Assembly (NCBI GenBank): GCA_949130485.1
Contig: OX422197.1
Span: forward strand, 3,850,205 to 3,914,204
DNA: 64,000 bases
Source of the DNA: Agelas oroides
Lineage: Eukaryota; Porifera; Demospongiae; Agelasida; Agelasidae
Reading direction: 5' to 3'
Part shown: positions 23,888 through 61,690 of the stretch, in pieces
Numbering within the stretch: position 1 is the first letter of the stretch
Layout of the letters: each line of letters starts with the position of its first letter
The notes under the pieces: generated by a model
What the model saw: only the letters and a program-made list of their open reading frames with translations
What the model was told of the DNA's origin: nothing
The model's database searches: none
Program-made: the position numbers and the translations under genes

Positions 23888-24027
23888 AGTTAGAGCACGC
23901 CTACACACGGGCTTTACCCGGAAATACACTCAGTAATATTCAATAAACCCTCGGCTACGCCCTCGGGTTTATTGAATATTACTGAGTGTATTTCGGATAA
24001 AGCCCTGGTAGGCATGCTCTAACTATA
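23888..24027. repeat. hairpin with conserved CG-rich centre (H1)
   Basis: Long inverted arms (gttagagcacgcc...; aatacactcagtaatattc with gaatattactgagtgtatt) surround the centre ccctcggctacgccctcggg. Its outer ends read tagttagagc and gctctaacta. It lies just upstream of the broken recombinase at 22459-23690. Confidence 0.8.
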
Positions 24028-24364
24028 ACATGTATTGAACAAGGCATCTTTGTTATGTTACCTGTAAAACATTATGGTTAAATTCATGACATTTTGCTGG
24101 TTACCCAAATTGGATGTCTATAGTCTCATACCCATGCTGCTTGAGTGTCCTGGGAATGAGGCTAATAACCTCATTTTACAATTATTCCTGGAATTATCTA
24201 TGCACTGGTTCTGCATTGGCTAGAGGAGTTGATTCAATAAAGCAGTTCATAACAATCTCATAAAAGACCAATTACAGGTCCATAATTGTTGATATAGAAG
24301 TTGGTCAGCTATAAGTTCAACATAGAAACTTGCATACTGATACTATCACAAACATCTCTCCATG

Positions 24365-24597
24365 TTAAGTTTGCCATGTTATGCAGGTGGAGTTAAACCA
24401 CTTTCCTGCCCAGTATGCTCCAAATCCCTTGTCAGACGCATCTGTATAGAGGACCGTGTCATAAGCTGTGGTCCAATGGACTTCACGAAAGAGACTTGAA
24501 GGGGCCGATAAATGGTAAATTAACCTCCAACCACCATCCTTTTTAGGCACAATACCCACCCCTGAGCAGCGAAGAATGGGATAAAGGGGGCGAGTTT
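24365..24597 (-). pseudogene. DIRS/Ty3-type RT joined to RNase H, deletion derivative
   Basis: The minus-strand frame reads PLYPILRCSGVGIVPKKDGG then WRLIYHLSAP, the N-terminal RT motif of DIRS-like elements. It then passes abruptly, after a short junction, to VLYTDASDKGFGAYWAGKWF, an RNase H motif with the catalytic Asp of YTDAS. The whole RT palm between these motifs is missing. It is the 3' part of the decayed retroelement whose gag-like pieces lie at 25838-27215. Confidence 0.7.
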
Positions 24598-24605
24598 AAC
24601 CGATT

Positions 24606-25003
24606 ATACGCGGTAGACGCCAATTGGCGTCCTACGCACATAAGTCACGAAACGCAATAGACGCCAATTGGCGTCACGGATACGGCTAAGCATTATCACG
24701 GCGCAGGGCGAATAGCTATAAGCTTTGTATCCGGTCTGTGATAAGCTTGGGGCTTCCCTTACTACTACAAGTGGGTTCTCAAGGGGTGGAGCATAGTGAG
24801 TGATAACAGCCCGGGCAGTTGTCAATCTCCTCGATCGAGAAAACCAGTTATCAGCCACGTTTTCTTCTCAACGCCAATAAGCAGAGGCACAGCGCTAACT
24901 ACGGAGGTACAGCATCTCTTGGGCTTCATAAATATCTAGACAGATCTCGAGCTGTGCCTTGCTAATCAACGAGCGAAGCCAAAGACGGTACACACAACAC
25001 GCA
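24606..25003. repeat. ~400-bp dispersed repeat, copy 2
   Basis: Second copy of the repeat at 17866-18262, same orientation, beginning at gcggtagacgccaattggcg. It begins within about 10 bp of the DIRS-like RT fragment. Confidence 0.75.
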
Positions 25004-25837
25004 GTAGGTAAGCGTCCTCCGTAAACCGGTTACATATGACTTCAGAAAACATACCTAGGTTCAGAATGACCCTGGAAAGCCTTTCTCCGTCCTTTTTTCA
25101 CTGTGTAGAGCTTCATTCGACTTCCCTGACGGTTTAAATCCTTAGAAAAAAGCTTTGTAAAAATTGACATCACGTGAAGCTAATCTATTTCCACGTTTGA
25201 GGTTAATTGCATTCCATTTAATCTCACGTATAAAGGATCAGGCATGTGGCCTGCTTGACATTGCTATTGCAAGGGCGTTGTCAACTACATTAGAGTGGGT
25301 GAATGCGGAGGGTACATGAGGTGTAATTTGGGTAAAATGAAGACTGTGGTAGCCAATATGACACCAGTGTACAAGGTTCTGAATACGATGCCTTACAAAG
25401 CCTTTGTCAACTCCCGCTTGAGTTTAAGTGGTCACAGTAATGTTGAAGGGTTGTGCAACTCAATAGAAGCTGCAGCGGGGACATTCCTATTGGAATGGGC
25501 ATTGTCCCCACAGAAGATGGAGCATACATGACAGAATCGGTGTGATTGTGCTCGTGAGTGTGAACCATTGTTGAAGTACCTACCTGTAGAGGAATGGAAG
25601 GCATGTGCATTCTGATCGGGGTTTGCAATCAATGAGCAATGGGGACTGAGGGTTGTGTGAATTTGGCTTACCTCCGGTGGGTATAGAAGGTGAAGGGTGT
25701 TGCGAGCCACGAAAAGGGTTCAGGGGGAGTTGTCTGGGAAATGATTTAGGGAGCCACAATATGTGCATGGACAATGCGTCTGTAGTGTGGGCTTGGTTGT
25801 GTTGGGTGGAGTTCAGGTTACATTTGCTGAGGTAACG

Positions 25838-26116
25838 CTAGACATTGGTGGTGGTGGTAAGCGTGAAACATTCGAGCCACAGGTTAACTGTCTGATCCCA
25901 TCTTAGGAATCTGTCTGCAGCTGATAACGAGCAAAAACGGGAGTCATACTTTAGCCAGGCCTGTGGTGAAAATTTGGAGCTAGCGTCGCAAAATATTCGC
26001 TGGTAGGTAAACAGAGTGAAGGCTCTGGTGGGGTAATGGGCTACAATGATGGCTGCATAGACACTCCACGCTTCCAACCAGGAGGAAAGGTCTGCCACAG
26101 TGCGTTTGTTAGCCAC
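25838..26116 (-). pseudogene. DIRS-like gag/ORF1 fragment, C-terminal part
   Basis: The minus-strand frame has DLSSWLEAWSVYAA, YPTRAFTLFTYQRIF, SPQAWLKYDSRFC and LRWDQTVNLWLECF. This is the W-rich pattern seen in ORF1 of many invertebrate DIRS-type elements (recalled). The frame is lost above 26116, where about 500 bp of unrelated AT-rich DNA separates it from the next piece. Confidence 0.55.
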
Positions 26117-26622
26117 TCAAGGTTGTGAGATTAGGATGCTGCCACTTGCCTTCCGCTCATTATGCTTCATTGCTATCCTGTTATGCTATTCCTTTATTCC
26201 TGATAATTATGCTCAGTTAAATTCCCCATTATGCCTAATGTGTACACAGCGTTTACGAGACAGTTCTGATCGCGTAGGAGCCTTGAGTCGGTCCAGCGTC
26301 GACTCGGAAGATGTGGACTCCGCCTCCTTGGGCATACTACCCAAGCTCTGATATGAGCTGTTGCAAGAGTCAGACATTGCGATCCTCATGCTAGTAGTAC
26401 CTAGCGTGAGCGGTATATACGTATACTACAGTTACTTTACACGTGGGCAATGTTTAGTATTTCTTACTAGGTTCAAAGGTTAAATAATTACATAAGCGGG
26501 TTGCACTTACCTATTATGCTCGAGATTGTGCTTATGCTAATAGCTGCCTTAAATTATGCTGGCATAATGTGCGCATGTCTAGCTGCCACCTGCAAACTAA
26601 AGTGAAGGGTCTGAGCCTTGAT

Positions 26623-26814
26623 CTAATGTGAATGATGGAGGGATGTTGTGTTATAGCGGGTGAGAAACATGGACTCCGGTAGTAACTGATCAAACTCAAC
26701 ATACTCACCCTTGATGATGCGCTGCATGTGTTTGGTTGGTACTGCTGGCAAGGAAACAGGGCAGGTGTTTTCAGTACCAGAAACCACCACTGAGTCCCCA
26801 GGTTGGGGGTCCAT
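26623..26814 (-). pseudogene. DIRS-like gag/ORF1 fragment, middle part
   Basis: Contains SLPAVPTKHMQRIIKGEYVE followed by FDQLLPESM, a motif typical of the same ORF1 family just ahead of the segment at 25838-26116. It ends in a frame break at its 3' side. Confidence 0.5.
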
Positions 26815-26975
26815 GGGGCTAGGGTTGACTGATGGCAGCGAAATGTTATCTTGTTGGCTTGTGTCACTATTCTCTGTGTCTAGTTCAAGGGGCGTCTGGG
26901 CTTGGTGGCATAGGGGTTGGGTATGCGGGTGTGCCTGATGGGATTTCCAACATGGTCAGAATAAGTTCAAGGAGT

Positions 26976-27240
26976 CTACCTTGGAGCCCTTGTAAGCTTT
27001 TGTCCACCAAGTCTTGGACGGGTTGCTGCAATTTGTGCAAGCGGCGGTGCCACAGTTAGGGAAGTGACACTGGTGGTGGGTGACAAGCCAGGTTGTTGGT
27101 GGAGTGTGGAATGTAACCACAACACCATTGCTGCAAAGCTACCTGTCGTGACAGGGTTGTGGCTGTTTAGGTGGAGTCTGAGGACCTCGGCTGGGAGGGC
27201 TTTTAGCTGAGGCAAGGTGAGAATGCTAACGTCGGGTGGG
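26976..27240 (-). pseudogene. DIRS-like ORF1 fragment with SAP-type motif
   Basis: Minus-strand frame: ISNPPDVSILTLPQLKALPA then EVLRLHLNSHNPVTTGSFAA. This looks like a SAP motif (helix, leucines, G, A/R-rich helix), which binds DNA. The position, upstream of the two other ORF1 pieces, is right for the N-terminal half of one protein. Upstream reading is broken by stops. Confidence 0.5.
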
Positions 27241-27507
27241 TTGCTGATCAGTTGCTGTTGTCAGGGGGCCGCTTCCTCATAGACGGCTTCAAAGGTGCTT
27301 CAGAAGGCCTCTTGTTCGGCTTCAGGGCCATGCTTGCACTGCTCAACTCGCTCTGCAGTTCACTATGGCTGGCGCGCTGATTACTTCCACAACGAGGAGG
27401 ATCTCATGATCCACCACATGGCGGGCATATATACCACGTGACCCATCGTGTGCTGGTACCTTTGATGGTTATTATTATACAATAACCAAGTATACACCTG
27501 TGCAGGG

Positions 27508-27855
27508 TTGGGTAGGCAGCTACCCAACCCGTCCCCATTTGCAGTCTACGAGTACAGCCTGTTAAGTAGCATTTGGGAACTAAATGCCGCATTATCTTCT
27601 AGATCTCCAGGTACACACTGGTGTAAGACAGACAAACAAGTTTCACTTGGTCACAAAGTTGTCATGAAACTCATGGAACAATTACAAGGGAAAGGTCACT
27701 GTCTTTTCATTGGCAATTTTTATACCAGTTCTTCTCTACTGCTTGATTTACCTGCTTTGGGAACCTATTGTATGGGCAGCATAGGAATTCAAGTGCACTT
27801 AGTCACTGTAAGCACCCATGGGCGCTCCGTCATAGTGAAATGCAGAAACACTTGA
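27508..27855 (+). pseudogene. piggyBac-like transposase fragment, catalytic Asp lost
   Basis: About residues 30-95 read THWCKTDKQVSLGHKVVMKL, then EQLQGKGHCLFIGNFYTSSS. This matches the DDE region of piggyBac transposases around the second catalytic Asp, normally in a DNxxTS motif. Here that Asp is Gly (IGNFYTS). No flanking domains were found. It is a dead fragment of perhaps one fifth of the protein. Coding similarity starts near 27600. Confidence 0.6.
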
Positions 27856-27879
27856 AAGAGCACCCAACCCCCTCACTAG

Positions 27880-29900: not shown

Positions 29901-29940
29901 AAGGAAAGTTGCACAAAGAGACATTACTTTTGAGAAGCTT

Positions 29941-30065
29941 CTATCTACAGAATGGATAAGGCCAGTTACCTGACAGTATTTGGTGTTTGAGATAGCAGCT
30001 CCCATGTAGCCAAGAGCCTGTAGATTCTACTGATACCAATATTGTGGAGACTTCAACTTGTTTGG
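29941..30065 (+). repeat. decayed Penelope-like terminus with degenerate hammerhead
   Basis: The string ggataaggccagttacctga and then ttgagatagcagctcccat align with the sequence just before the hammerhead at 53246-53289 (aataaggccagccacctga, atgagatagcagtcccc). At the ribozyme position only ctgat and a gagac survive, so the catalytic core is lost. Probably an old truncated insertion. Confidence 0.45.
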
Positions 30066-31357: not shown

Positions 31358-31519
31358 ATGAGTAAAAGTAGCTGCAAAACAATCGAGTTAGAGGCTTATC
31401 GGTTGGATAAGGACTGTGCATTACCCAAGGAGAAGCTCAAGAGTTTGACTGAAAGGCTACGCAGTCCTCTTCGACTGTCAGGCGTGGATAGCATCATAAC
31501 ACAAAGTTCCTCACGTTAG
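31358..31519 (+). CDS. small ORF with upstream TATA motif
   Basis: A 53-codon frame, MSKSSCKTIELEAYRLDKDC to TQSSSR, rich in charged residues. It is preceded 42 bp upstream by ctataaata. It could be a first exon or an independent small gene. No family is recognised, and this is offered on composition and context only. Confidence 0.25.
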   Translation: MSKSSCKTIELEAYRLDKDCALPKEKLKSLTERLRSPLRLSGVDSIITQSSSR

Positions 31520-38372: not shown

Positions 38373-39545
<1,173 letters not shown>

Positions 39546-44910: not shown

Positions 44911-44914
44911 ACGT

Positions 44915-47100: not shown

Positions 47101-47113
47101 GCAGTCATACCTC

Positions 47114-47434: not shown

Positions 47435-48269
47435 TCATACCTCTGCCACTGGGAGAGGGTGGGTAAATTCTTCCTAACTTCCAACACACTCAACCTCATA
47501 TATGCACAGCGAGTGAGATGGCTCAAATGACAGCAGAACCACTCATGGAGGGGATGAGCAACATGCCCTGCAGGTTCAGGTGAGGATGAGGGAGGTGTAT
47601 GCCTCCACCTGCACACTCGGTGGATATGCTTTGTTTAGCAATAACACCATTTTCTCCTCTCACTTCTCCTCCTTCCTTCTTTCCTCCCTTCCCAGGTTTC
47701 CTGGACCCCACCCACTTCCACATTCAGTGTTGCTTTCTGAGACTCTGACCCTGAAGTGGTATAGCATTGTGCCTGATGCATAAATGGAAAAGGGATTTAT
47801 TCTCACTTTGCCTACATACAGGTATGAGTTAGAAGGGCTTTCAAGGGACAAGACTTACCAAACACAGGGTGACTTAGTTCTACTTTAAAGGACTTCAAAG
47901 GATAGAGGTTGTATGGAGCCATCCTCACAAGAAGCGGTGTGTGGAGATAGGATCGAGATGATGATGCAGAGGCTTCAAAGACTCCACAACTAGCTCAATA
48001 GGCTGTTTGTCTAGCTTGTATTTAACTGATAGTTATAGATTGGCCAGTCACACTGAATGATTGGTCATGTATACTGAAAATTAAGATTTGGTTATGTATG
48101 AAAACCTGGAAAAGGTTCTGTTACCAGCTTTAGAATTTTGCCATTTTGACTGAATGCTGTAGTCATCATCAGAGTGAAAGCAAACTGTCACCGACTTGTT
48201 ACACACATGTTGTAACTATAAATATTTCTTCACATATTGTAACTGTAAAGTTAAACTATTAAATAGTAG

Positions 48270-48408
48270 TTAGACGCCGAGACCAAGGGATCTACGCTAT
48301 TTAGAAACCCGAGGGCCCGAGGCTGTGGCGACCCGAGCGTAGCGAGGGCGCTACTAAGGGCCCTCGGGTTTTTAAATAGCGTAGATCCCGTTGGTCGAGG
48401 TGTCTAAC
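48270..48408. repeat. hairpin with conserved CG-rich centre (H2)
   Basis: Arms agggatctacgctattt...acccgagggccc and gggccctcgggt...aaatagcgtagatccc flank the centre gacccgagcgtagcgagggc. Outer ends are ttagacgcc and gtgtctaa. A close direct copy lies at 56664-56802. The pair brackets the split recombinase gene (48473-56450). Confidence 0.85.
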
Positions 48409-48472
48409 TTATTTGCAACCGTTTGCTTTATAAACGAGCACGCGTCGGCCATTAATATCAACTCATCAAGCC

Positions 48473-48606
48473 ATGGAGCTAAGCGACTTACTGCAACACG
48501 ACCTACTTCGGTTCTGCGAAAGCAGTGAAGACAGCGACAACAGTTTCGACCTAGACCAGCTGCTTTCAAGCGCGCTGGACGAATATGAGTCTCAATCCGG
48601 ATCCGG
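48473..48606 (+). pseudogene. DUF3504 recombinase, N-terminal piece
   Basis: Starts MELSDLLQHDLLRFCESSED and is acidic and serine-rich, as N-termini of this family often are. The frame runs into the CCGG target site of the Ginger-like insertion. It continues in the same frame at 49788 when the insertion and one CCGG are removed. The start lies about 65 bp after hairpin H2. Confidence 0.7.
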
Positions 48607-48813
48607 TGTTACAGGAAATTTGATCGCTCGGAAATACTATCGCTGCGATAATATTTCCTAGGAAATTTTATCGCCGAGCGTAACTTTTTCCTAGGAAATA
48701 TCATCGCAGCCAGGAAATACGATTGCTCACGGTACAGCCGTCCGGTAGAGGCGAGAAATAGTGCTTTAAAATGGAGATCATTGCACGTCTCCGCAGTGTA
48801 TTGACTTTGCAGT

Positions 48814-49190
48814 GATGGAAGTGAAGGAATATGACGAGATCTACAACGTGGTGGCAGACCAGAACTATCCAGATGGGATCACCAAGAACCAGAAAGATGC
48901 CTTGCGCAACAAGGCCAAAAAGTTCGCGATTCGAGATGGTCTATTATATTACTGTGACAAGAAGCGTGGAGAAAGGCAGGTGGGTGCTGTGTGTGTGTGT
49001 GTGTGTGTGTGTATAGACTCAGTAGGCAAACCTCAAACTTCAACAAATATTAAAAGATATTTCCTTGTGTCAATGTTATATGTAGGTGATAAAATCTGAG
49101 CAGAAACAGCAAGTCCTCCAAGCTTGGAGCACACTTTGGAAGGGACAAAGTGGTGGAGAAGATTGAGGAACGATACTACTGGGTGGGTAT
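48814..49190 (+). pseudogene. integrase N-terminal (H2C2-like) part with intron
   Basis: Exon 1 (48814-48979) reads MEVKEYDEIYNVVADQNYPD ... DGLLYYCDKKRGERQ and ends in a cag/gtgggt donor. A 106-bp intron (48980-49085) with a TG microsatellite ends in ttatatgtag. Exon 2 resumes KSEQKQQVLQA and, after a frame shift, GRDKVVEKIEERYYWVGIIR. This is the zinc-binding region ahead of gypsy/Ginger integrase cores. The His/Cys of the second half appears deleted, and the DDE core is absent. Confidence 0.6.
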
Positions 49191-49198
49191 CATCAGAG

Positions 49199-49564
49199 AT
49201 GCAACAGGGAGTTGCAGACTGTGGAGTATATGCTATTGCATACGCTTTCCATGCAGCAAGAGGGGACAGTTTGGAAGATATAGAGTTTGAACAAGACAAA
49301 ATGCGGCAGCACTTAGCTAGATGTTTAACTAAGCAAAAGCTGATTCCTTTTCCACACTCAAAAAGGCGTGCTCGTGTTCCACCGTACCCATGGTTTCCAT
49401 ACCAGGAAATAGAAGTGTTCTGCACTTGCGAAATGCCAGAATACCTCGACAACATGATACAATGTGATGGTTGTGAGGAATGGTACCACATGGCTTGTGT
49501 TGGACTGAAAACTCCACCTCCAGATACTGATTCATGGCACTGTAGTACAGCATGTAAAGTGTAG
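49199..49564 (+). pseudogene. Ulp1 protease tail plus PHD finger
   Basis: Starts within the protease at QQGVADCGVYAIAYAFHAAR, carrying the oxyanion Gln and catalytic Cys. It continues with FEQDKMRQHLARCLTKQK and a linker with PPYPWFPYQ. It ends in a full PHD finger, from FCTCEMP through MIQCDGCEEWYHMACVG to SWHCSTACKV. The sequence before QQGV is missing, joined directly to integrase remains. Compare the similar gene remains at 43069-45060, which are clearly a different lineage. Confidence 0.75.
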
Positions 49565-49783
49565 GACTCATATATAAATTTCACTAACATAGTATAACAA
49601 CATGAAAGTGATGTACCCCTGTTCGTATTTTATGTAATGACAATGCTGCTTTTGTTTTTGTGAGCGATCGTATTTCCTGGCTGCGATGATATTTCCTAGG
49701 AAAAAGTTACGCTCGGCGATAAAATTTCCTAGGAAATATTACTGCAGCGATAGTATTTCCGAGCGATCAAATTTCCTGTAACA

Positions 49784-50407
49784 CCGGCCCCGCCTCTGAA
49801 ACACCTAATCCCGCCCCAACTACCAGCCCCACCCCCCAAAGCAGATTCGCTCCACCGAAAACAGCGAAAGATGTTCAAGAAGCGAGGCGCCAGGGAATTC
49901 CAAAGAAGACTCAGCAGGACACATGCTACTGTGTCCGAGTGTGGAATGAATGGAGGAGCTACCGGAGAGAGACTTGTGGTGACACGATTCCAGCTCTAAG
50001 CGATATAATCCCCTCCGACCTCCAGCACTGGTTAAACTACTTCGTGCTGGAAGTGCGCAAAAAGGACGGTTCTGAGTATCCGCCAGACTCCCTCCACCAC
50101 CTTTGCAGTGGGATTGTGCGTTTTCTGCGGGCAAACAACTGCCCATCTATTGACATCTTCAAGGATTCAGACTTCACTGAATTCCGTGCCACACTAGATG
50201 CCGAGATGAAGCGTCTGCAGGCCCTAGGAGTAGGTTCAAAAAAGAGGCAAGCTGAACCACTGACCGAGGAGGAGGAGGAGGTACTATGGTAGAAAGGGCT
50301 ACTTGGTGACCACACCCCTCAAGCACTGCTCGATACAATGGTGTTCATGAATGGGCTATATTTTGCCCTACGCAGTGGCAATGAACATCGAAACCTGCGC
50401 TTTTCAC
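49784..50407 (+). pseudogene. DUF3504 recombinase, middle piece
   Basis: Contains the core-binding domain (TQQDTCYCVRVWNEWRSYRR, LQHWLNYFVLEVRKKDGSEY, LHHLCSGIVRFLRANN), a PLTEEEEEVLW linker and the first catalytic segment with Arg in [14 protein letters not shown] stop interrupts it at 50290-50292, right after EEEEEVLW. It is cut at gcttttcac (50399-50407) by the 5.3-kb block. Confidence 0.85.
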
Positions 50408-50459
50408 TAGCCTCGGTCCCAGGCCTCCCTCGTTTTACCTTCCGTTTGCGTTCACAATA

Positions 50460-51348
50460 ATACACGGGAGCGGAAGGCCGGCGAAAAACGGGGAAGGCCT
50501 GGGAGCATTCATCACGTGAGTGGACGCGAGGTGGACGTAGGGGGGAGGGGCCGATATTCAAATATAAACGTAGTAAACTTGAAAGTGAGTTTCTTACCGG
50601 TCAAGACGAGTAGTTTCCATCACGCTAAGGTCTGGAGCCCGAAAACGTGGTAGAGCGCTCGAACGGATGGTCCTGTGCGTTGTTTTGGCAGTTGGGCCCC
50701 TCCCCCCTTACGTCCACCTCGCGTCATAGGTCCGAAGGTTATATACTAGGGGGAATGTAGAACATTGTGGGGCGAGCGTGAGTAAGCGATGCACTACAGC
50801 ATCGTAGCAGCACGCCTAGCCCTGTCAGCTTCCCTGCGCCTTGACAAGCGAAGTTCTTTCTGTTGTGTTGTTTCTGCAGAGCGTCGAGCTCTCTCATATT
50901 CTCTTCTTCGCCTCAATCTCTCTTGTTTATCCATAGTTTTACAGTTTAACTCATTAATGCGCCACGTGCAACAAGAAATATGCTCTTGACCTCTTACCCA
51001 TGCCTCGCACCCAGATAATTTTACAGTTTAGCTCATTAATGCGCCATGTGCAACAAGAAATACGCTCTTGACCTCTTACCCATGCCAGTTGATCTCATGC
51101 CCAGACCTGGGGCAGGGCGCCGCTTAAATAGATCATAGAGATATACGGAATCACGTACGTACCATCGTATCTATGGTACCATCGTATCTATGGTACCATA
51201 CATATCGAGAATCCACCAGCCAACTCCTAGTGTGGGGCTCGCTCAGGCTCGCCTCAATTATCTATGCTCGCGTCCACCTGACGTCACTCACGTGATGAAT
51301 GCTCCCAGGCCTTCCCCGTTTTTCGCCGGCCTTCCGCTCCCGTGTATT
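50460..51348. mobile_element. nested element with cacgggagcggaaggccggc arms
   Basis: The left arm (50460-50536) and right arm (about 51270-51348) are inverted, with gggagcattcatcacgtgag in both. Inside is a second pair of arms, gcgaggtggacgtagg / cttacgtccacctcgcg (about 50526-50725), then an M2 copy (50752-51260). Non-coding. Confidence 0.75.
50752..51260. mobile_element. M2 MITE-like element, copy 2
   Basis: Starts ctagggggaatgtagaacat and ends with ctagtgtggggctcgctcag and gcctcaattat, as for the copy at 34271-35060. It contains a direct duplication of ttaatgcgccacgtgcaac near 50957 and 51036. Confidence 0.6.
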
Positions 51349-51449
51349 GGGCTATTCCATTTAATAAGCATACACCCCCTGTGGATGGACAGTTTGGGTA
51401 ATATGGCCCCCTAGACATAATTAGTAGCCAATACCCCCCCTAGACAGCT

Positions 51450-51845
51450 AATCAAATGGGTTGTAATGCCCCCCTGACACAATTAACTGCATGTCCACCC
51501 CCCTGGACAGCTAATCAAATGGGTTGTAATGCCCCCCTGACACAATTAACTGCATGTCCATCCCCCTGGACAGCTAATCAAATGGGTTGTAATGCCCCCC
51601 TGACACAATTAACTGCATGTCCACCCCCCTGGACAGCTAATCAAATGGGATGTTGTGCCCCCTGACATAATTAACTGTATGACCACCCACCTGGACAGCC
51701 AATCAGATGGGATGTAATGTCCCCAATTAACTGTATGTCCACCCCCCTGGACAGCTAATCAAATGGGATATTGTGCCCCCTGACATAATTAACTGCCCCC
51801 TGGACAGGTGATCAGATGGGATGTAATGTCCCCTTGACACAATCA
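51450..51845. repeat. ~64-bp tandem repeat
   Basis: Each unit has ccccctgacacaattaactg, catgtccacccccctggac and agctaatcaaatggg. The first three units are nearly identical; the later ones are degenerate and shortened. The Pro-rich frame through them is an artefact. Confidence 0.85.
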
Positions 51846-52229
51846 AATGCACAAACAATGCACTGTGTATCCCTGAAATATTTAGTGTCACTAGTGGACT
51901 GGTGACTCAAGATTACCTAGGCCGAACATATACAGAAGCCTTAGCATCAACTAGGCCACAACAGTTTACAAACTTTGTATATAATATTGAATTTGTGTTC
52001 AGTAACTGCCCAAGTTCAAGGAGGACAAATAGGTGATGTACGCAATGCTGCTAGTTTAAAAAATACTTTTATGTCCACACTTTAGTAAGTTTAATATTAG
52101 CTTCTTTGTCATCTTGTTTGTCTATGACTTTGTAACTGGGGTGCTTTTCATTAGCTATGCTATCTTGTATCCCTTTAACTTTCATAGAGAAAAAGAAAGA
52201 TTGGTTATAGTAAACTACGTACAAATCCC

Positions 52230-52910
52230 ATGCATGGATACAATTTCTTGATAGATAATATATACATCCAGATAGGATCAGCTGTCTACCAACAAACAAT
52301 TGGCATCCCTATGGGTACTGATTGTGCTCCATTAGTTGCGGATCTATTTCTTTTCTCCTATGAATTTGAGTTTATGAAATCCCTAATCCGGACTGACCTC
52401 TCTGTAGCAGCTAAATTTAGTAATACTTGCAGATATATTGATGACTTGCTTACACTTAACAACCCTGATTTTCAAGCATGCATAGGCCAAATTTACCCCC
52501 CAGAATTAGAGCTTAAGAAAACTACAGAGAGCCATGACAGCTGTTCCTACCTAGATCTTAACATTAATGTCCTGAATGGTAAGTTTTGCACACACTTGTA
52601 TGATAAGAGGGATGCCTTCAACTTTTCAATAGTCAATTTTCCACACATGGATAGCAACATACCCTCAAAACCAGCATACGGAGTAGTAATTTCACAGTTA
52701 GTTCGATATTTGAGGATATGTTGTAATTACCAAGATTTTGTTTACAGATCTAAACTACTCACAACCAGATTACTTAGACAGGGATACGTATACCAAAAAC
52801 TCTGTAGCACCTACAAGACCTTTGTGCATCGCTACCCCAGGACTTTACAGAAGTACGGGAGGTGCCTGAAAAACATTATTACTGAATGCATTGCCATAGC
52901 TACTGTTTAA
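52230..52910 (+). pseudogene. Penelope-like reverse transcriptase, C-terminal half
   Basis: 226 residues. Motifs in order: YQQTIGIPMGTDCAPLVADL (motif around the primer grip side of the palm), CRYIDDLLTLNN with the catalytic Asp pair, LELKKTTESHDSCSYLDL, and the conserved tail FVYRSKLLTTRLLRQGYVYQ then KYGRCLKNI. The N-terminal fingers and the first catalytic Asp are missing. No GIY-YIG endonuclease is found. The hammerhead 336 bp downstream supports the Penelope-like assignment. A 5'-truncated insertion. Confidence 0.75.
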
Positions 52911-53245
52911 CGCAGCCTGAACATGCAGTTTACTTGGCTTGGCACATTTATGCACACACAGCCTTTAAACACGCACTGTTTGCCTTACACTGTTTGCCTT
53001 GTGCCTTATTAACAATACTTCCGGTACCTCCAGTGCCTCTGTATGCGCGCGCGCGCACGCACGCGTCGATAACACGTGACGATCAATCGCTACGTAAGAC
53101 CTTCGAACGAAAGACAGCTGCACGAAGAACAGCTGCACGAAGAGACGGTGCTTTCGAGGAGTCTCTACCGACTTTTGAATAAGGCCAGCCACCTGACTGC
53201 ATTCTGTGCATGAGATAGCAGTCCCCATCTCCCGGTCACCCCAGC

Positions 53246-53289
53246 GCAGCTGATGAGGCCTGGTATTGGCCGAAACGCGTCCTGCGCAG
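53246..53289 (+). ncRNA. type I hammerhead ribozyme (minimal stem III)
   Basis: All conserved positions are present. Stem I is gcgcag (53246-53251) with ctgcgc (53284-53289). The CTGATGA core is at 53252-53258. Stem II ggcc/ggcc encloses loop tggtatt (53259-53273). GAAA is at 53274-53277. A minimal stem III, cgcg, is followed by TC with cleavage expected after 53283. Small type I hammerheads with very short stem III are a described feature of Penelope-like retroelements, where they sit in the terminal repeats. Confidence 0.92.
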
Positions 53290-53454
53290 TGGGTGACTTT
53301 GCATAACATCTAGGCCTGTTTTATAAGGGAGATGTGGTTCGTTGATTGTTCATGGCTACCAAGCTGTAAGTGCACTGTGTATCCTACTAACCCTTGTATC
53401 CTTGGTAATAACCAGTGCATTGCTAAGATCTTCCCAGCTTTATTCTTGTTTCCA

Positions 53455-53690
53455 AGCAACAGATAGGGAACAGCCTGAGTAGAGGATCGAAATGATGTTT
53501 TCTTTTTCTATAGTAACAGGTGGGGAACAGCCTGAATAGAAGATAGAAATGATGTTCTTGTGTCTATGGTTAAAAGGTGGGAACAGGATAGGAATGATGT
53601 TCTTGTTTCTATGGTAACAGGTGGGTAACAGCCTGAGTAGAGCTGGGATAGGAATGATGTTCTTGTTTCTATGGTCAATGATGGCATAAA
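53455..53690. repeat. ~65-bp tandem repeat, four units
   Basis: Units carry taacaggtggggaacagcct, gaatgatgttcttgtttcta in order with small indels. The minus-strand frame with repeated HRNKNIIPI is a consequence of the repeat. Confidence 0.75.
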
Positions 53691-53821
53691 GAACAACATA
53701 ATACCAAAGATCCGTTGCCAATCCCACCCTGCTCTATTATCCCACTGCATAGACAAGTAACTATAGAGACTTGTGCAAGTAGGGCTATATTATCTACACT
53801 TATAGCCACTAGGTGTTTATG

Positions 53822-53946
53822 TAATAGTTATAGCACAGGTGCCAGGGATTTATGGCAGTAAACAGACCGAGTCCGAGGGCGTAGCCCGAGGACGAGGTTT
53901 GTTTACTACAGCCATAAATCCCTGGCCACCTGTGCTATAATTATTA
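53822..53946. repeat. hairpin with conserved CG-rich centre (H4)
   Basis: Arms ttatagcacaggtg..ccagggatttatggc and gccataaatccctggccacc surround gtccgagggcgtagcccgag. Ends are taatagttata and tataattatta. The arms are unrelated to those of the other hairpins. Confidence 0.8.
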
Positions 53947-54903
53947 TATATCCCACCTGATTGGTCCTTTGTTGTTATTATTGTAAACACATCTGTACAT
54001 GTGCAAGTGTTTACAGTAACTTCGATATTATTTACTGTCACAGAAAAATGATGTAAAATCTGTACTATAGTCTGACAATGTAGTAGACTGTAAACTAAAA
54101 ATACATGGAGAGGGAATTATGAGCCATAATTTCCCTTGTAGCCTTGAGGGGACAAATTATGACAGTTAAAGTCCACTCTGGCCTATGCATGAAGTATAGT
54201 AGGTGGGATATATAAAACAGATATTCTTGATGACAGGTAACAGCTCTGTAGCATGCTTTTGTATGTCTAGCTACCAGTCACTCCAGAGTATATACATGTA
54301 CACAACCCTTTTGTGCAAGCAGATATGCCAAGTATCAGTCAAATCTTGTACAGTGCTACAGGTACATAACCCGTGAACTATTACTAAATTAGATTTGTAC
54401 TTGTTAGCGTGTGTCTCGCGCTTTGTGCTCGTCACACCCCCCCTCCCCCACCTGGACAGCCAATCAAATGGGACTTAGAGCCCCTCTGATACAATTAAGG
54501 GCATACCTACCCCCTTGGATAGCCAATCATAGTACCCCCTGACATAATTAACAGCTTTTCCAACCCCCTGGTCAGCAAATCAAGTGGGATGTAGTACCCC
54601 CTGACAAAATTAACAGAATTAAGGCATCATGTATAACCAAGTAGCTATTTTCCACTTTTTACAGAAATAGAAACTAGCATGGTTATGTATGATTTAGCTA
54701 TTTTTTTTATGAAATTGAGTGATTTCATTTCATTTATGTAAGTTCCACCACGCCTGCTCACAAGAGTTAACCAACAGTTGCTGAAAGGCTTTAGCTGTGC
54801 AGGATGTCCGAGGGGTTGTATTACAACCCCATGGACATAAGTATACTTAAAGAATTTATCCCCCTTGACACAAGTCACAATTCTGGCAATACACCCCCTG
54901 AAC

Positions 54904-55014
54904 TAGCCTCGTTCCCAGGCCTCCCCCGTTTTTTGTTATTCGGTTTGCGTTCAATATATTATACTGAACGCAAACTGAAGAACAAAAAATGGGGGAGGCC
55001 TGGGAATGACGCTA
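54904..55014. mobile_element. 111-bp palindromic TAGCCTCG element, 9-bp TSD
   Basis: tagcctcgttcccaggcctc at the left and the inverse at the right, ending gggaatgacgcta. Flanks cccctgaac at 54895-54903 and 55015-55023 match perfectly. The centre reads cgttcaatatattatactgaacg, nearly a perfect palindrome throughout. It lies inside the repeat array of the element at 51349-55672. Confidence 0.9.
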
Positions 55015-55079
55015 CCCCTGAACCACTTCAACCCCCCTTGACACAAATCATAATTCTGATGATACACCCCCTGTACATA

Positions 55080-55630
55080 ATTAAGCTTGAATCACTTGTA
55101 CCCCCTTGACACTAATCATAATTCTGACAACACTGGCTCTCAGACATAATCCTACTTAAAGTTTACCCCCTTGACCCAAATATCACCCTCCCTCCCATAC
55201 ATAATAATTAAGATTAACCAATTCTACCCCCCTTGACACTAATCACAATTCTGACAATACACCCCCCTCGACATAATTAAAGCTCATCCACTTCTACCCC
55301 CCTTGACACAAATCCATAATTCTGACAACACTGGCCCCCCAGACACTAATCACAATTCTGACAATACCCCCCCTGTATGTAATTAAGATTAACCACTTCT
55401 ACCCCCCTTGACACTAATCACAATTCTGACAATACACCCCCTCGACATAATTAAAGCTCATCCACTTCTACCCCCCTTGACACAAATCCATAATTCTGAC
55501 AACACTGGCCCCCCAGACACTAATCACAATTCTGACAATACCCCCCTGTATGTAATTAAGATTAACCACTTCTACCCCCCTTGACACTAATCACAATTCT
55601 GACAATACACCCCCCTCGACATAATTAAAG
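55080..55630. repeat. higher-order repeat (~175 bp) of short CCCCTTGACAC units
   Basis: Smaller units (cccccttgacactaatcac, aattctgacaataca) are arranged in a longer unit that recurs at about 55225, 55400 and 55573 with near-identical order. This indicates segmental duplication of multi-unit blocks. Confidence 0.8.
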
Positions 55631-55725
55631 CTCATCCACAGGGGGTGTATGCTTATTAAATGGAATAGCCCATTATTGTGAACGCAAACGGAAGGTAAAA
55701 CGGGGGAGGCCTGGGAACGAGGCTA

Positions 55726-56450
55726 GCTTTTCACCATGCCAGATAGAGGTTCACGACAATGAAGGAGAACGGCCCTACCTGTTGTACACAGAAGACCTCT
55801 CAAAAAAACCACCCAGGTGGCCTGAAAGGGAGACGAATCAAACCAAAAGTGGTTCGTCACTATGCAAACATCGAAAATCCAAGCAGGTGTTTCGTGACAC
55901 TGTTCAAGCGCTATACCACCTTGTGCCCATCAAAAACATCAAAGAACGCATTTTACTTGCAGCCCCTGAGGAACCCCACTCCGCACTGTTGGTACTCTCA
56001 AGAGCCACTAGGACACAACAAGCTGGCAGGCACTGTTTCCAGACTCTGCAATCAGCTGGAATAAAAGGGTTTAAAACAAACCACTCATTAAGGGTCACAA
56101 ATGCCACACGCCTCTACTCATCAGGCACTGATGAACAGCTGATAATGGAGCAAACTGGTCATCGAAGCACTGATGGTGTACAGCCATATAAATGTACTTC
56201 TGAAGAGCAACAGATTGCCATTTCGGACATTTTAAACAGGAGCAAAAAGCCAAGGTCTGAACAACAACAACTAGTACCATCAACACAGGACTCTGCTCAA
56301 CTATCAAGTGAACATCCAGCACTGTTTCCTCACTCTGGACTCACAACCCAATCTTCCGCCTTCACAAAGACACAATACAACACCATACCAGGAACATTTC
56401 AGTTCAACCACTGTGGCTCTGTCACCATTAACCTCAACTACAACAACTAG
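55726..56450 (+). pseudogene. DUF3504 recombinase, C-terminal piece
   Basis: Resumes after the 5.3-kb block with SPCQIEVHDNEGERPYLLYT. A run of seven A at about 55801 shifts the frame; the family-like reading then continues as GGLKGRRIKPKVVRHYANIE to YLQPLRNPTPHCWYSQEPLG. A second shift near 56055 leads to GFKTNHSLRVTNATRLY (HxxR), EQTGHRSTDGVQPYK (His and catalytic Tyr) and a Gln-rich tail to the stop at 56450. Catalytic residues are present but split between frames. Confidence 0.85.
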
Positions 56451-56663
56451 ACATTGTTTATGCATTCTTGCACTGTTGTATGTAATCTATCATTTTCAGT
56501 TGTATGTAAACTTTCATTATTGTATGTAATCTTGTTGTTTTCAAATAAAATTGCCCCCTGGTACCAGGTGTCTATGAGATTCACCAGGTGTCTATGAGAT
56601 TTAGAAACCTGCTACTGACCAATCAGATTACTCTATTTCATACAGCTATACTCTAAATAATAG

Positions 56664-56802
56664 TTAGACACTGAGACCAAGGGATCTACGCGATTTATAA
56701 ACCCGAGGGCCCCCGGGCTGTAGCGTCCCGAGCGCAGCGAGGGCGCTACTAGGGGGCCCGAGGGTTTATAAATTGCGTAGATCCCGTTGGTCTCAGTGTC
56801 TC
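56664..56802. repeat. hairpin with conserved CG-rich centre (H3), copy of H2
   Basis: Same arms as H2 (agggatctacgcgatttat, acccgagggccc) and centre gtcccgagcgcagcgagggc, in direct orientation. It starts about 210 bp after the recombinase stop, so H2 and H3 bracket that gene. Confidence 0.85.
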
Positions 56803-57330
56803 ACTTTTTTAGATCAGGGCTAGCACTGTTGTAAACTCCTGCATATTTTCGAAGCAAATACCACCATCACAAGCGACGGAAAGCTGTGGACACGAAGAGC
56901 CGTCGGGCTAGCTACCCTGCAGAGCGAACCGAGCGAACGGAACACACCTCGACAACCGAACTATAACTCACCTGTGTTCTGAAAGTACGGGTGCAGGTTA
57001 CGATATACCTTGGTGAAGAAAGGTCACGCTGAGAACAACGAACGGCTGTTCAAAGCGTTGTCTTCACTCGAAGAACACAGCCAGTTTCAAAGACAGCGCT
57101 GCTCACGGAGGTGGTGTACGGATAATAACCGGACTTCCGCATATGCTCGAATGGAAAAACAATTTTTTTGATTTACTGAAAACAAAAATTCGCTTATTTA
57201 CACAAAATATACTTGTATTTACACACATCAAAATATTTGTTTATATATAATCCATGTACATACTACTGACAATGTAAGGCCAAAACAATGGCCTCATGCT
57301 CTGAGCAATAAATTACAGGTGTTCTATGTT

Positions 57331-57448
57331 ATAGTTATTAACCGCTCACGAGGGCTTTAGTAGATATATAAGCACACCGCCCGAGGGCGCAGCCCGAGGG
57401 CGGTGTTGCTTATATATCAACTAAAGCCCGAGGGTGCGGTTAATAACT
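57331..57448. repeat. hairpin with conserved CG-rich centre (H5)
   Basis: Arms gttattaaccgctcacg, agggctttagt, gatatataagca and their inverses surround cgcccgagggcgcagcccga. Outer ends are atagttattaacc and ggttaataact. Confidence 0.8.
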
Positions 57449-57449
57449 G

Positions 57450-58840
57450 GCTTCTAGCCCGTTTGCGCATGCGCTTCAATGTGTTGCTATGTTAGCGGTG
57501 TGTTTATTTGTGAACGCAGCTGTTTTTCGAAGGTTGCACTAGTAGTCTAGCTAGCTTACAGGTACGGTAGTACTCAGTTACTTGTAGTAACAACCATTTT
57601 TGTCGTAGCTGCGACTTTGAAACCGTTCAACACTGCGATGGGCGACGACAGCCAGTCCGGAAACGGGCCCGAGTGGCGAAGCCTTATGAGAATTGACGGC
57701 TATGCCGTGATGCTTTCTGCTGTTTTCCAACAGCGCTGTTGACAAATTATGTTTCTGAAGGCATCCTATGTCCACGAAACAAGCCTCAAAGCTAGCTTCG
57801 TAGCCACCGTGAGCACAGAGCGTTACCGGTTTGATTTTCGTCTCTTTTGGCCCGTTGGGGCTTGTCCGCGCGGCTTGTTCTCGGACTGGCCATCGCTGTA
57901 GTCGACCCATTCTGTTATCGCAATGCTGAGCGGTTGAGAATGCACATAAAAAATTCTGCGTAAATCCAGGCAAATAAAGTTACCTGTACTTGATGCCCGC
58001 GGGATACAAACTACAAGGCTTTATCTGAAATATAATGCACTCTATTACATAGCAACCACATAGTAACGGGCTAGAAGAGAATTTACAAGTATTCTATGGG
58101 ATTTAGAACACCTGCTGTTGACCAATCATATTGAAGTATTTACTACAACCATGATCTAAAACTGGTGATGAATGCTTTAGGCGTTAATTATTAATTACCA
58201 AAACCAAAGTGTAATTTTTAGAGAAAGGATCACTAAAAACTAGTGTTCCACATTTTTTTCAAACAAACACAACGGCCAAGGATGCTGATGACCTGCGGGG
58301 GATGGATGGTGTGCAAAGGTATTGAGGAGCATTACCAGAGGATAGCGCTGAAAGAGCTTGGGGGGAGGGGGCTCAAGGACAAGGTGAATGCAGCCATGGT
58401 GATAAGGATGTGACTAATATGCGACTATGATAGGAAGATGGAGGAAATGCTGGAAACAGGTACCTATACAGAAAGCTAAAGGGGGACTCAACAGCAACCC
58501 CAGGAGAATGGCTGTTACCAACTGGATACTTGCTCTCCCTTCCCCCTCTCTTTCCTACCTCCCACCCTCCTTCCCGTTCTTCCTCTCTCCTTCCACCCTC
58601 TCCCCAGGTAGCTGTCTTCCAAAGCTGCTGCTCACCCAGAGGGCTGAGGCGAGTACAAGTACCTGCATGGAGAATGCCAGCCACGGTGTTGGATATCAGT
58701 GTGTGGTGTGTGTGTGTGTGTGTTCTGCCATGTCTTAACAGCAGAATCGGACACGATTTTAGATCAAAGAAAAACGCATCATAATTTACGAGCTCAGTAC
58801 AACAATAATATTAAAAAAATAAAAATCCGCGCCTGGGGGG
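57450..58840. other. no recognisable gene
   Basis: Minus-strand ORF 57578-57973 and plus-strand ORF 58427-58738 lack recognisable domains. Pyrimidine tracts at about 58540-58600 resemble acceptor regions but no exon chain was built. A short TG microsatellite lies at about 58700. Confidence 0.3.
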
Positions 58841-58847
58841 TCTGTCC

Positions 58848-59140
58848 CTATTGAAATGGCCCCAGCTTTTTGTGTGTGAACTGCATTTCCCCACGCCCAC
58901 TCGGCACTACAGAGAAGTACCGTCCGGCACTGATATTTCCAGTCTGGCACTGGTGTGCCCATTCCCCCATGTAGGAGAGGTATCTCTCGAATTCCTGGTG
59001 CTCTCCTTTCATCATGTGGTCAAAGAGCCCATGGACCCTTTGGCCATCCACTTTTACAAGACATCTTGAGTCGCAATGCCTCATTGCAAAATAGTCAAGC
59101 CAGTCTTTGAAGTTGTTTAGTGATTGTGCTGGAGTACCTC
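58848..59140 (-). CDS. candidate 3'-terminal exon, unknown protein
   Basis: On the minus strand, a strong polypyrimidine acceptor (ccctctccctcccctgtag) is followed by an open frame of about 95 codons. It reads GTPAQSLNNFKDWLDYFAMR, DSRCLVKVDGQRVHGLFDHM, KGEHQEFERYLSYMGEW and ends THKKLGPFQ stop. The charged, non-repetitive composition is coding-like. No family is recognised. It could be a transposon gene or a host gene; the upstream exon was not found. Confidence 0.45.
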
Positions 59141-59162
59141 CTACAGGGGAGGGAGAGGGAGA

Positions 59163-59179
59163 GGGTTAGGGTTAGGGTT
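59163..59179 (+). repeat. short interstitial (TTAGGG)-like array
   Basis: gggttagggttagggtt, just under three telomeric-type units, within the presumed intron upstream of the candidate exon at 58848-59140. Confidence 0.6.
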
Positions 59180-59703
59180 TCCACTTGCATCACTCTTGGG
59201 AAAGGCAGGAAGGGGCAGTACTATTGCATGAGTGGTTGTGGATTTTAATAAGGGCTTCCAAACAAACTTTTCTCTCAAACAGAGAGACCAAGCGGCCTCC
59301 AGTTTTTCCACTTATGGTGGGAGTGCTACCTTTGAATAACTTGAAAACCAGCTGGAAACGCAAGTACCAAGTATGACAGCTGAGATTAGAAACCAGTCAA
59401 AATCCCATTTGAAAAATGTTAAAAAAAAAACAAAAAAAAAAACAAACAAACAAACAAACAAAAAAAAAACGTGATTAAACTCCATGAAAAGAGTAATGCA
59501 TGCCCAAACCAAAAATAATTGTATTTAGGTGGTTTTATTGTCTGATATCATCTATGACAACTACCAATTCAGTTGGCACGAGTTTTGGACCTTGCATTCA
59601 AAAGTTACAGCACAGAATTTGCATGTACCTCATCATTTTACACCTTGGAACTCGCATGTACCTTGCTGTTTCACACCTTGAAATTTTCACATACCTTTCT
59701 ACT

Positions 59704-59755
59704 AGCCTCGTTCCCCGGCTTTCCCTGCTAAGGAGGGGGAGAGCCTGGTACATTT
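59704..59755. repeat. TAGCCTCG-family remnant
   Basis: tagcctcgttccccggcttt and gagagcctggta form imperfect arms. The outer right terminus is missing, as in a similar remnant at about 1848-1890. No duplication found. Confidence 0.5.
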
Positions 59756-59813
59756 TATCGCGTGCGTGACATCAAGGGTAGACACGACTTACTGTCATTA
59801 TTCAAATAGAACG

Positions 59814-59915
59814 GTAGATCCAATCTAGCAGAAGAAATTTTTTTAATCCAATTATGTGGAAGGTAGCTTCACTAATTATTTTCGAGTCAATCCAATTTAG
59901 CAGAAGAGCCTGCTA
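59814..59915. repeat. dispersed repeat (tagatccaatcta), copy 2
   Basis: Matches 19667-19790 in order: tagatccaatctagcag, agaaatt, aatccaattatg, caatccaatttagcagaag. Non-coding. Confidence 0.6.
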
Positions 59916-61141
59916 GTCTGCTGTAGCCAGCGGTTTTTGTGCCATCTTATCTACGCATGTACTAGGATGGCTAGGCAGTTGAAGCGCTATGCAGGAGACT
60001 AAGCCTTGTAGAACCAGAAAACGATCGGCGAAGGAATGCCAATACTGCTGTGAACGGGCGGTGTGTGTTTCTGAGCTTGAAAACTGGCAGTGTGAAGTTC
60101 CTGAGGCTTTCAAATATCAATAAGATTGTCTCAGGGCTATCTGAGGTTGACAGAGGCTTCATGTTTTATGAATATTTGTTTCTTACGGATTCTTCCTTTC
60201 TTATGTAAGAATGATTGCTGAATCAGCAATTATTGCCTTCGAACGCAACAAATAATTTTCGACACAGGATATCTTCACTCGCAAGCAAGCTATTGACACG
60301 GAATAAAGACTAGCCTATAGCTAAGACCTGTAGATAAAACATCCAACAATCACGAAAAACCTTTCAGATATACGTTGGTCCCAAGTGCTATAAGTCTGTT
60401 GGGCGGGGCTTGGTGATGGTCGATTGTTTGCTAACAGTATCTCCGGTTCTCGAGAAGCTATCGACATGGGACAAGGACTGTCAGGAAGAGAGACTGTTGG
60501 CCTAAAATATATCACAAAATGAACAGTGTTTGACACACGATGCAGCTGTTATAAATGTGTAAGTGTTTCGCCCGTCCGGAAACCATAGAAATGGTGCATA
60601 CTACGTTTCCATAGTAAAAATTTCACACCGTTTTTTGAACACGGTTCGTACCATAGAACGACCGTAGTATGAAAACGGAACGTAAACTTTATTTTGGCCC
60701 CTTCTGTATAAACCATGGCTGAATGAGTTCTCCATGCAGGCTACCTGCTGACCTGTCCTCCTCCTCTTTTACTCTGTCTTTCTCCTCTAGTACTCTTTTC
60801 GCCATCCTGCATTCCAAATAAAAGACACCCACCATGTATAAATTAATCATCAGTGGTACACTACATTTGACACTGCCAAATCTAATTTCTGCCAGGCTAA
60901 GTTTGGCAACTACAAGTTGGAGAAGCTAGAAACAAGCACATACCAACACAAACTGACAGCTCCTTGTTCCCCCCTGAACCACTTACTCAGCACTTCTCCA
61001 ACTTGAATTAAGAGTATGTGTATAATACTAGGTATTTGTATTCGTGCTGTATGACTCACGCACATCTCCATGACCTTTGAATCAACACGTGTGGATATTA
61101 GTTAGTAGGCACGGCATGTGCTTTTCGGTCATGCATGTGCA

Positions 61142-61200
61142 TAGCTTCGTTCCCAGGCTCGTGCATGGGTGGGGCACGCACGAGCCTGGGAATGAGGCTA
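61142..61200. mobile_element. 59-bp TAGCCTCG-family element, 9-bp TSD
   Basis: tagcttcgttcccaggctcg at the left and cgagcctgggaatgaggcta at the right. Flanks gcatgtgca at 61133-61141 and 61201-61209 match perfectly. It is almost nothing but its two termini, so it shows the minimum sequence that was still mobilised. Confidence 0.9.
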
Positions 61201-61637
61201 GCATGTGCAATGAAATGCAAAAAGTTTGAGAAGGAAGGCAAAGCGTACGTATTGAGTTCGAGAATGTGAGCGCGTTTTTGGACCGCACAGAACGTGAGGA
61301 GATGGTCGTTTATCAAGACGACCACATGCTTTATTAGCTTCGCTAGGCACTGCTGCTCTCTCTCATACTCATCGTTCTCAACATGGACATCACGGTGTTG
61401 TGGCTACATTTACACTCTGTCTTCTCTTCCATTTTCGTGCAAGGTTCCTAGCTCTCCCTCTCTTCCATCACAATTTCTGCCATTTTGACGTTGAGACAAT
61501 GAGACTGCTAGCACCATTACAGCACTGAGAACAATAAACCTACGTACAGGATGTTTAATTGCATTCCTAAGTGGGACAAATGTTTGCGCACAAGCCACAC
61601 CCTCAATTACATTCTAAAGGGTGACAAATTGCATTCC

Positions 61638-61690
61638 GTAATGCAGTAAATTGTACTCGGCTGCGCCTCGTACAATTATTTCCGCATTAC
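61638..61690. repeat. short hairpin with conserved CG-rich centre (H6)
   Basis: Arms gtaatgc..aattgtac and gtacaatt..gcattac surround tcggctgcgcctc, the inverse of the CGAGG-CGCAGC-CGA centre seen in the other hairpins. Shortest member. Confidence 0.6.

Follow-up and report, generated by a model that had tools for sequence, protein, structure and literature searches.

The hairpins considered here lie in a 64-kb stretch of the genome of the sponge Agelas oroides (contig coordinates 3850205-3914204), referred to below as the window. They are best explained as left-end recombination structures of Crypton-type mobile elements whose tyrosine recombinase works on one folded DNA strand, and this explanation, taken as a whole, is given a probability of about 60%. 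Its anatomical part, according to which the hairpins form the left ends of elements with a DUF3504 tyrosine recombinase gene and of their gene-less derivatives, is close to certain, whereas the folded-strand step, which derives from comparative analysis, stands at roughly even odds. The search covered the whole genome of 259 Mb in 141 contigs (labelled C1, C2 and so on, with the window on C15), and sampled genome loci are denoted by L numbers.

A preliminary description of the window had listed six hairpins with a common centre and unrelated arms. All six are present and are numbered here H1 to H6 in coordinate order, so that the pair formerly called H2/H3 corresponds to H2 and H4. The common centre holds for five of them. 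H3 (53818-53950, plus strand) and H5 (57333-57448, plus strand) carry its long form, H2 (48260..48414, plus strand) and H4 (56652-56813, plus strand) its short form, and H1 (23887..24025, minus strand) the long form less one base, its core being one base shorter than in copies L027, L046, and L048. H6 (minus strand, given as 61638..61690 in the preliminary description, core at 61656) has instead the core CGAGGCGCAGCCGAG with a 3-bp stem and belongs to a second class; its arms are weak (score 9.6), and no DUF3504 match adjoins it among the census matches listed. The statement that the arms are unrelated except for one pair was right, the matching pair being 48270/56664 (H2/H4, 86%). Across the genome, the arms are alike within each family, and because of this genome-wide match they are to be regarded as repeat-family sequence. 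The suggestion of a process that copies local DNA in inverted form is for this reason not supported, and such copying would also be expected to erase the mismatches that the arms retain. When folded as DNA, H3, H5, H1, and the hairpins of families L003 and L015 exceed shuffled sequences in stability by 12.4 to 17.8 standard deviations, and for each hairpin 0 of 200 shuffles was as good.

H1 to H5 are the left termini of mobile elements, designated F1 to F5. Comparison of H3 with the genome copies L002, L004, and L008 reveals about 396 shared bases with an abrupt stop on both sides and the hairpin leftmost; a short motif lies directly inside the hairpin and recurs in inverted orientation as the far end. 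The same end layout is found in H1, H5, L011, L012, L015, L022, L024, and L028 and, with different arms, in the H2/H4 type at L049, L052, and L054, while L079 represents yet another family, whose loop is GAA and whose arms are quite different. From left to right, an element consists of a GTTATAG or TAATAG end, a hairpin of 100-150 bases, the short motif, cargo or a recombinase gene, and the inverted motif copy. Length is well defined in some families (exactly 393 bases in 9 of 18 copies of the F3 family and 373 bases in 8 of 13 L003-type copies), and elements with both ends clean measure 0.4-3.2 kb. For H2, H4, H6, and many loci, the scores of an automatic search for the far end did not rise above chance, and for H1 the score was 23 against 21 for the next best candidate; the right end of F1 is trusted because the same motif terminates L048, a second, 1120-bp copy of its family. 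An ordinary TA-type miniature inverted-repeat transposable element (MITE), mobilized by a DDE transposase, would require terminal inverted repeats at both ends and a target duplication. Neither fits, as the ends are asymmetric and the target is not duplicated. The arms do sort into MITE-like family clusters, a result which had been named in advance as unfavorable to a link with the recombinase, but full members of several of these families carry the recombinase gene.

Empty sites, for which a search had been proposed, were found and define the inserted DNA exactly. In uninterrupted F4 copies (L049, L051, and L053, three of three examined), the site of F5 reads ACAGGTGTTCTAT^GAGAATTTACA, with no base duplicated or lost. 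The flanks of the F3-family elements in L004 and L047, when joined, restore an intact 28-base palindrome that occurs at 239 genome places with up to two mismatches (the first 100 listed are all exact; backward control 0); these two insertions may be copies of one event. Further agreement comes from L024, where an F5 element has entered an H5-type arm, and from L041, where an F3 element has entered an L003-type arm. The host bases that precede the element were counted in 42 copies whose left end is of the GTWATAG type: T occupies position -3 in 37, A position -2 in 40, and T or A position -1 in 39. The count includes array members and leaves out L046 (the place of L027), doubly listed F1 copies, and L007 and L047, whose left flanks are the same as those of L006 and L004. 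Insertion is therefore exact and duplication-free and takes place after a short AT-rich motif. The element boundaries fall outside the hairpin, and the earlier idea of a crossover in the spacer at its centre is not supported. The same fact excludes a scheme in which hairpins are crossover centres and the target provides one arm. The 28-base palindromic repeat itself has the structure CCGTGCAATAT-CGTGTG-ATATTGCACGG, and the F3 element stands at the edge of its loop in both L004 and L047.

The association with the recombinase is equally regular. In F1, F2, L011, L015, L056, and their relatives, a gene with similarity to DUF3504, QRICH1, or Phage_integrase is located to the right of the hairpin and directed away from it. 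The full-length relative of F5 in L011 has an open recombinase frame of 482 amino acids (P0001), which matches DUF3504 (2.2e-37) and Phage_integrase (8.8e-10) and whose N-terminal part aligns with QRICH1. Its HxxR, H, and Y motifs align with those of IntI4 and XerA in weak matches (E values 0.014-0.094) that do not extend over the first R, and its predicted structure has a mean pLDDT (predicted local distance difference test score) of 36. Recombinases of several families, in like position, are 27-50% identical to the L011 protein over the aligned stretches. Since most gene-bearing loci were fetched for their hairpins, an unbiased measure of linkage is given by a genome census, which listed 151 DUF3504 matches (335 candidates, 150 scored). 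Cores were taken from the first 100 places for each pattern; these lists are complete on C1-C2 except at the end of C2 for the free-flank pattern and are incomplete on C3-C5 for the free-loop and free-flank patterns. On C1-C2, a first-class core occurs within 2.5 kb of 10 of 44 DUF3504 matches, always 5' of the gene and on the same strand, at 662-967 bp. The other three arrangements of gene and core are absent there, and random placement yields the observed one 0.14 times on average and at most 3 times in 1000 trials. On C1-C5, the figure is 14 of 84 (random 0.21). The second class, with the 3-bp stem of H6, stands beside 8 of the 44 matches on C1-C2, none of them shared with the first class, and is always 3' (random 0.27), seven times at 599-627 bp and once at 1147 bp, with the opposite strand in 6 of 8. 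Taken together, 18 of the 44 matches have a core of either class within 2.5 kb. The expected enrichment near DUF3504 genes is thus found in a constant layout, and this fixed geometry together with the exact empty sites bears out the proposal that elements with a DUF3504 recombinase have these hairpins as their mobile ends.

The centre of the hairpin is widespread. With up to two mismatches, the long form CGAGGGCGYAGCCCGAGG has 756 matches in the genome (backward control 0), the short form CCGAGCGYAGCGAGG has 186 (control 0), and the 3-bp-stem form has 231 (control 1). Among the 30 short-centre loci fetched, L058, L066, L073, and L077 belong to an unrelated repeat in which the hairpin is absent, and the folding of L059 is poor. 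Read along one strand, the centre is CC-GA-GGGC-GYA-GCCC-GA-GG, namely a GNA triloop that caps a short G+C stem, followed by two G.A mismatches and then by the arms. In the short and 3-bp forms, the length of the stem is altered and the loop and mismatches are kept; in L003:1116 and L004:1802, the stem sequence is altered too. When the loop is left free, the first 100 of 305 matches comprise 67 with GTA or GCA, 21 with GAA, and 1 with GGA (89 GNA), and 11 with ANA, as CpG decay would produce. When the flanks are left free, the first 100 of 387 matches comprise 72 with GA/GA, 24 that deviate by CpG-type decay alone, and 4 others. A fully paired version of this apex occurs once, and the opposite strand would carry T.C mismatches. 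Hairpin loops of the d(GCGNAGC) type are unusually stable, and tandem G.A steps are stable through sheared pairing. The centre can be read as a minihairpin of single-stranded DNA, and its mismatches and loop are understandable on only one of the two strands. The portion of PMC10527192 available here concerns the melting temperature of one related hairpin only. An apex of this kind, with GNA loop and G.A steps, is also present in long palindromes with different ends at L003:1116, L004:1802, L021:3779, and L026:1945, and those of L003 and L021 are close to L003-type elements.

The comparison of copies also demonstrates covariation in the arms and a structural constraint with a strand bias. Thirteen distinct hairpins, out of 27 in the family of F2 and F4 (F2/4), were aligned, nine of them as representatives, with L062, L063, H2, and H4 added by choice. 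In this alignment, 97.8% of cells are paired, a value that leans upward because the structure was taken from the same alignment. Changes on both sides affect 13 of 57 pairs (6.5 in shuffles) and amount to 40 double-change cells (9.6 in shuffles). None of 500 shuffles was as high, and control alignments in which the sequences were slid gave 1 to 3 pairs. With regard to mismatches, 57 distinct hairpins, excluding the core and any hairpin scoring under 20, contain 149 G.A against 23 T.C cells in their arms, or 80 against 8 distinct events.

Elements of this kind also join one another. Seven head-to-tail neighbours, of the same or different families, are present in the sampled loci. Abutment is exact between F2 and F4 in the window, in L018, in L028, and in L011, where an L003 type is followed by an H5 type. 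Other joins are imperfect: L030 has a variant right end upstream, the second join of L011 lacks two left-end bases, and L054 has three bases in between. Genome-wide, an L003-type right end is directly followed by GTTATAG in 13 exact cases (21 with up to one mismatch), compared with 232 exact right ends, and an H5-type right end in 1 exact case, compared with 76. Some of these junctions may be copies of one event. At the L028 junction, the right-end motif and the hairpin form, when folded, a single longer hairpin that bulges where the elements meet, and at the L018 junction, the stem is lengthened by most of the motif. Two other arrangements deserve mention. In L017, two H5-type elements stand tail to tail, six bases apart, and about 22 host bases are repeated on both outer sides; in L011:4001-5300, a 643-bp stretch made up of the inner hairpin and the recombinase gene's 5' part is duplicated in tandem, and the joint of the repeat falls within the left hairpin arm.

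These features can be combined into a possible reaction. The element would leave as a circle, in which the right-end motif and the hairpin are joined into a longer hairpin, a join that is seen in a natural array junction. The recombinase would recognise the folded core strand, and the outer stem, the bulge, and the arm would serve as the two binding boxes and the spacer of a tyrosine-recombinase site. A cut at the bulge that separates the arm from the outer stem, with joining to a TWTAW target, would give the left end the hairpin and the right end the outer strand, which matches the observed ends. If shape is kept while sequence drifts, the arms of different families would diverge and still remain paired. 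The elements may in this respect move somewhat like the cassettes of bacterial integrons. In its most general form, the proposal is that a tyrosine recombinase moves eukaryotic transposons via a folded single strand, with a hairpin recognised by shape, a GNA loop and tandem G.A mismatches as the mark of the strand, and diverging arms and mixed arrays as consequences, that is, an integron-like logic outside bacteria. This generalisation is tentative and would be given slightly less than even odds.

Several observations weigh against the folded-strand explanation. The circle, the single-strand intermediate, and the reaction itself are all deduced, and none has been observed. Folding energies are nearly equal for the apices of the two strands (-3.4 versus -3.0 kcal/mol; 0 for both in the short form), although the rules used for the calculation may give no credit to sheared G.A pairs. 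As for covariation, the signal of further pair types is weaker (30 versus 26.0, with 15 of 500 shuffles as high). The strand bias is unevenly distributed: F2/4 contributes 92 of the 149 G.A cells, the L003 family has almost as many T.C as G.A cells (7 versus 9), and the wobble asymmetry (53 G.T versus 35 A.C, p=0.07) is not significant and is reversed in F2/4 (21 versus 25). The arrays are likewise uneven across families (13/232 for L003, 1/76 for H5). Moreover, the L003 right end, TATAT, resembles the target, so that arrays alone are no proof of end-to-end recombination, and a TATAT-like target may account for them without any recognition of the hairpin. The junction of F2 and F4 lengthens the stem by a few pairs only, and the mixed junction of L011 does not lengthen it at all. 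Finally, for 26 of the 44 DUF3504 matches on C1-C2, the surrounding 2.5 kb contain no listed core; as only listed cores were counted, these matches may have decayed or different hairpins, and perhaps elements without hairpin are also among them.

The strongest competitor, though an unlikely one, is that the same elements recombine as double-stranded DNA in the usual manner and that the hairpin serves another step, such as element replication or a cruciform landmark. Exact insertion and a short target motif are in line with the ordinary strand exchange of tyrosine recombinases, TAT is common to right ends and targets in the F3 and L003 types, and no intermediate was seen. In a duplex site, on the other hand, neither an apex whose mismatches and loop suit one strand nor strand-biased arm mismatches would be expected.

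Alternatively, the elements could be rolling-circle elements of the Helitron2/Helentron type with the recombinase gene as a passenger. Helitrons insert without target duplication, as has been shown for the elements described here. Helitron2, Helentron, HINE, and these elements have in common an asymmetric inverted repeat with a hairpin next to it at one end, and as far as the consulted sections of PMC4067079 and PMC5148889 go, the published Helitron2/Helentron ends are strikingly similar in layout and their targets are likewise AT-rich or T-rich. Helitron Rep genes also occur in the genome (86 matches). The linkage data point the other way: of the 42 Rep matches on C1-C2, none has an intact listed core of either class closer than 5 kb, and 3 have one within 15 kb, a limit adopted because Rep genes are long. 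The latter number resembles the 4.3 expected at random, whereas 18 of 44 DUF3504 matches have a listed core within 2.5 kb. An earlier Rep count had used 36 of these 42 rows, or 50 of 60 on C1-C5, by skipping neighbouring fragments of one gene; the final count keeps all 42. In addition, a recombinase in like position in several families, with proteins as divergent as reported above, is not what a passenger gene would suggest, and the enzyme differs from that of Helitron2. The palindromes at the 3' end of mite HINEs measure 5-10 bp in the part of PMC4067079 at hand, compared with arms of about 40-80 bases here. A rolling-circle origin is accordingly improbable. Tandem G.A pairs are found in RNA as well, and the structured strand of the first class is the sense strand of the gene, but a role in the transcript, for example as a 5' untranslated region, is the least probable of the explanations, given that second-class cores lie 3' of the gene and mostly on the opposite strand, that gene-less copies retain the hairpin at the extreme end of the element, and that no Rfam family reached its gathering threshold within the window.

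With respect to known systems, the elements share with the animal Cryptons (CryptonA) a single tyrosine recombinase gene with DUF3504 and Phage_integrase similarity, the existence of gene-less derivatives, and insertion without classical target duplication, for which the exact empty sites are the evidence here. They differ from CryptonA in their long hairpin left end and inverted right-end motif, which recur in several families; terminal repeats are reported to be absent from animal Cryptons in the consulted passages of PMC3212892. Integron cassettes stand in head-to-tail arrays, as do these elements. The resemblance to the attC/IntI system extends to a tyrosine recombinase and to a hairpin of variable length and sequence whose shape is kept and in which one strand appears to be preferred, this preference being comparative evidence with one of two strand tests not significant. 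In attC, IntI binds the bottom strand of the hairpin, as stated in the part of PMC3053210 that was available. In contrast to attC, the left ends GTTATAG and TAATAG differ from the RYYYAAC/GTTRRRY core sites as compared by eye, no scan having been made; in contrast to integrons, no attI platform was seen, full-length elements carry their own DUF3504-type recombinase, and the host is a eukaryote. DIRS/Ngaro retrotransposons and fungal Starships are other eukaryotic elements with a tyrosine recombinase; the present ones are distinguished by the DUF3504 type of enzyme and by a length of 0.4-3.2 kb, reverse transcriptase having been sought only by Pfam scans of P0001 and of the open reading frames of the window.

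The enzyme is hence of a known, Crypton type, the ends resemble those of Helitron2, and the logic of the site resembles that of attC, whereas hairpin and inverted-motif ends appear to be new for Cryptons. No description of hairpin or palindromic Crypton ends was recognised among the papers listed, as judged by titles and the openings of abstracts, in a coverage that lacked most subscription papers and probably the Repbase reports. The termini and the mode of integration of animal Cryptons have so far been open, to judge from those passages of PMC3212892 that report no terminal repeats, and the families described here provide exact ends and empty sites. Other genomes can be searched for their structural signature. 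If the folded-strand reading is true, recombination guided by shape and not by sequence exists in eukaryotes, and the host genes that arose from this recombinase (KCTD1, QRICH1, and ZMYM2-4, as named in the section of PMC3212892 consulted) would stem from an enzyme that prefers structured DNA.

In the window itself, F1 occupies 22088..24029 on the minus strand (1942 bp), with H1 as its left end, the remnant of a recombinase gene, and the right end CCCAGGATACAA. The gene consists of two overlapping frames on the minus strand (22459..23609), with a QRICH1 domain at 23073-23609 and DUF3504 and Phage_integrase similarity at 22459-23103. F2, on the plus strand, is a recombinase element with nested insertions that extends over 48264..56657, the left limit at about 48264 being uncertain by a few bases and the right end ACAGCTATACTCTAAA lying at 56642-56657. 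These two ends probably belong to one element, as indicated by the family motifs and by the two gene halves between them, namely an N-terminal part with a QRICH1 domain (49723..50292, plus strand) and an open frame with the C-terminal part (55629..56450, plus strand), whose residues 104-188 form a Phage_integrase domain. Inside F2 lies the non-autonomous F3 (53821..54213, plus strand, 393 bp), which begins with H3 and ends with AGGTGGGATATAT. The right end of F2 directly meets the left end of F4 at 56658, forming a head-to-tail array of two elements. F4 (56658..58160, plus strand) is non-autonomous, has H4 as its left end, and is split by F5 (57328..58076, plus strand, 749 bp), which is non-autonomous as well, starts with H5, and ends with AACGGGCTAGAA. 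The geometry of H2 and H4 around the second recombinase had thus been correctly described, but the two hairpins do not bracket one gene; they begin two elements. For the same reason, H2 and H4 are excluded as terminal direct repeats of one element, each being the left end of its own.

Some minor observations concern other parts of the window. Within F2, 48603-48730 and 49660-49787 form a 128-bp inverted pair (97.7% identity) around an open reading frame with a PHD finger (49100-49564), apparently another element with its own cargo, and 52188-52910 contains a reverse-transcriptase-like open reading frame with a weak RVT_1 match (E value 0.023). Short inverted repeats of a separate group, whose ends resemble TAGCCTCGTTCCCAGG, are found at 54904-55014, 61142-61200, 38940-38989, and 63470-63527. 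A long open frame at 11362-13194 contains near-identical repeats around SYTRQCKDLETWPENTNST.

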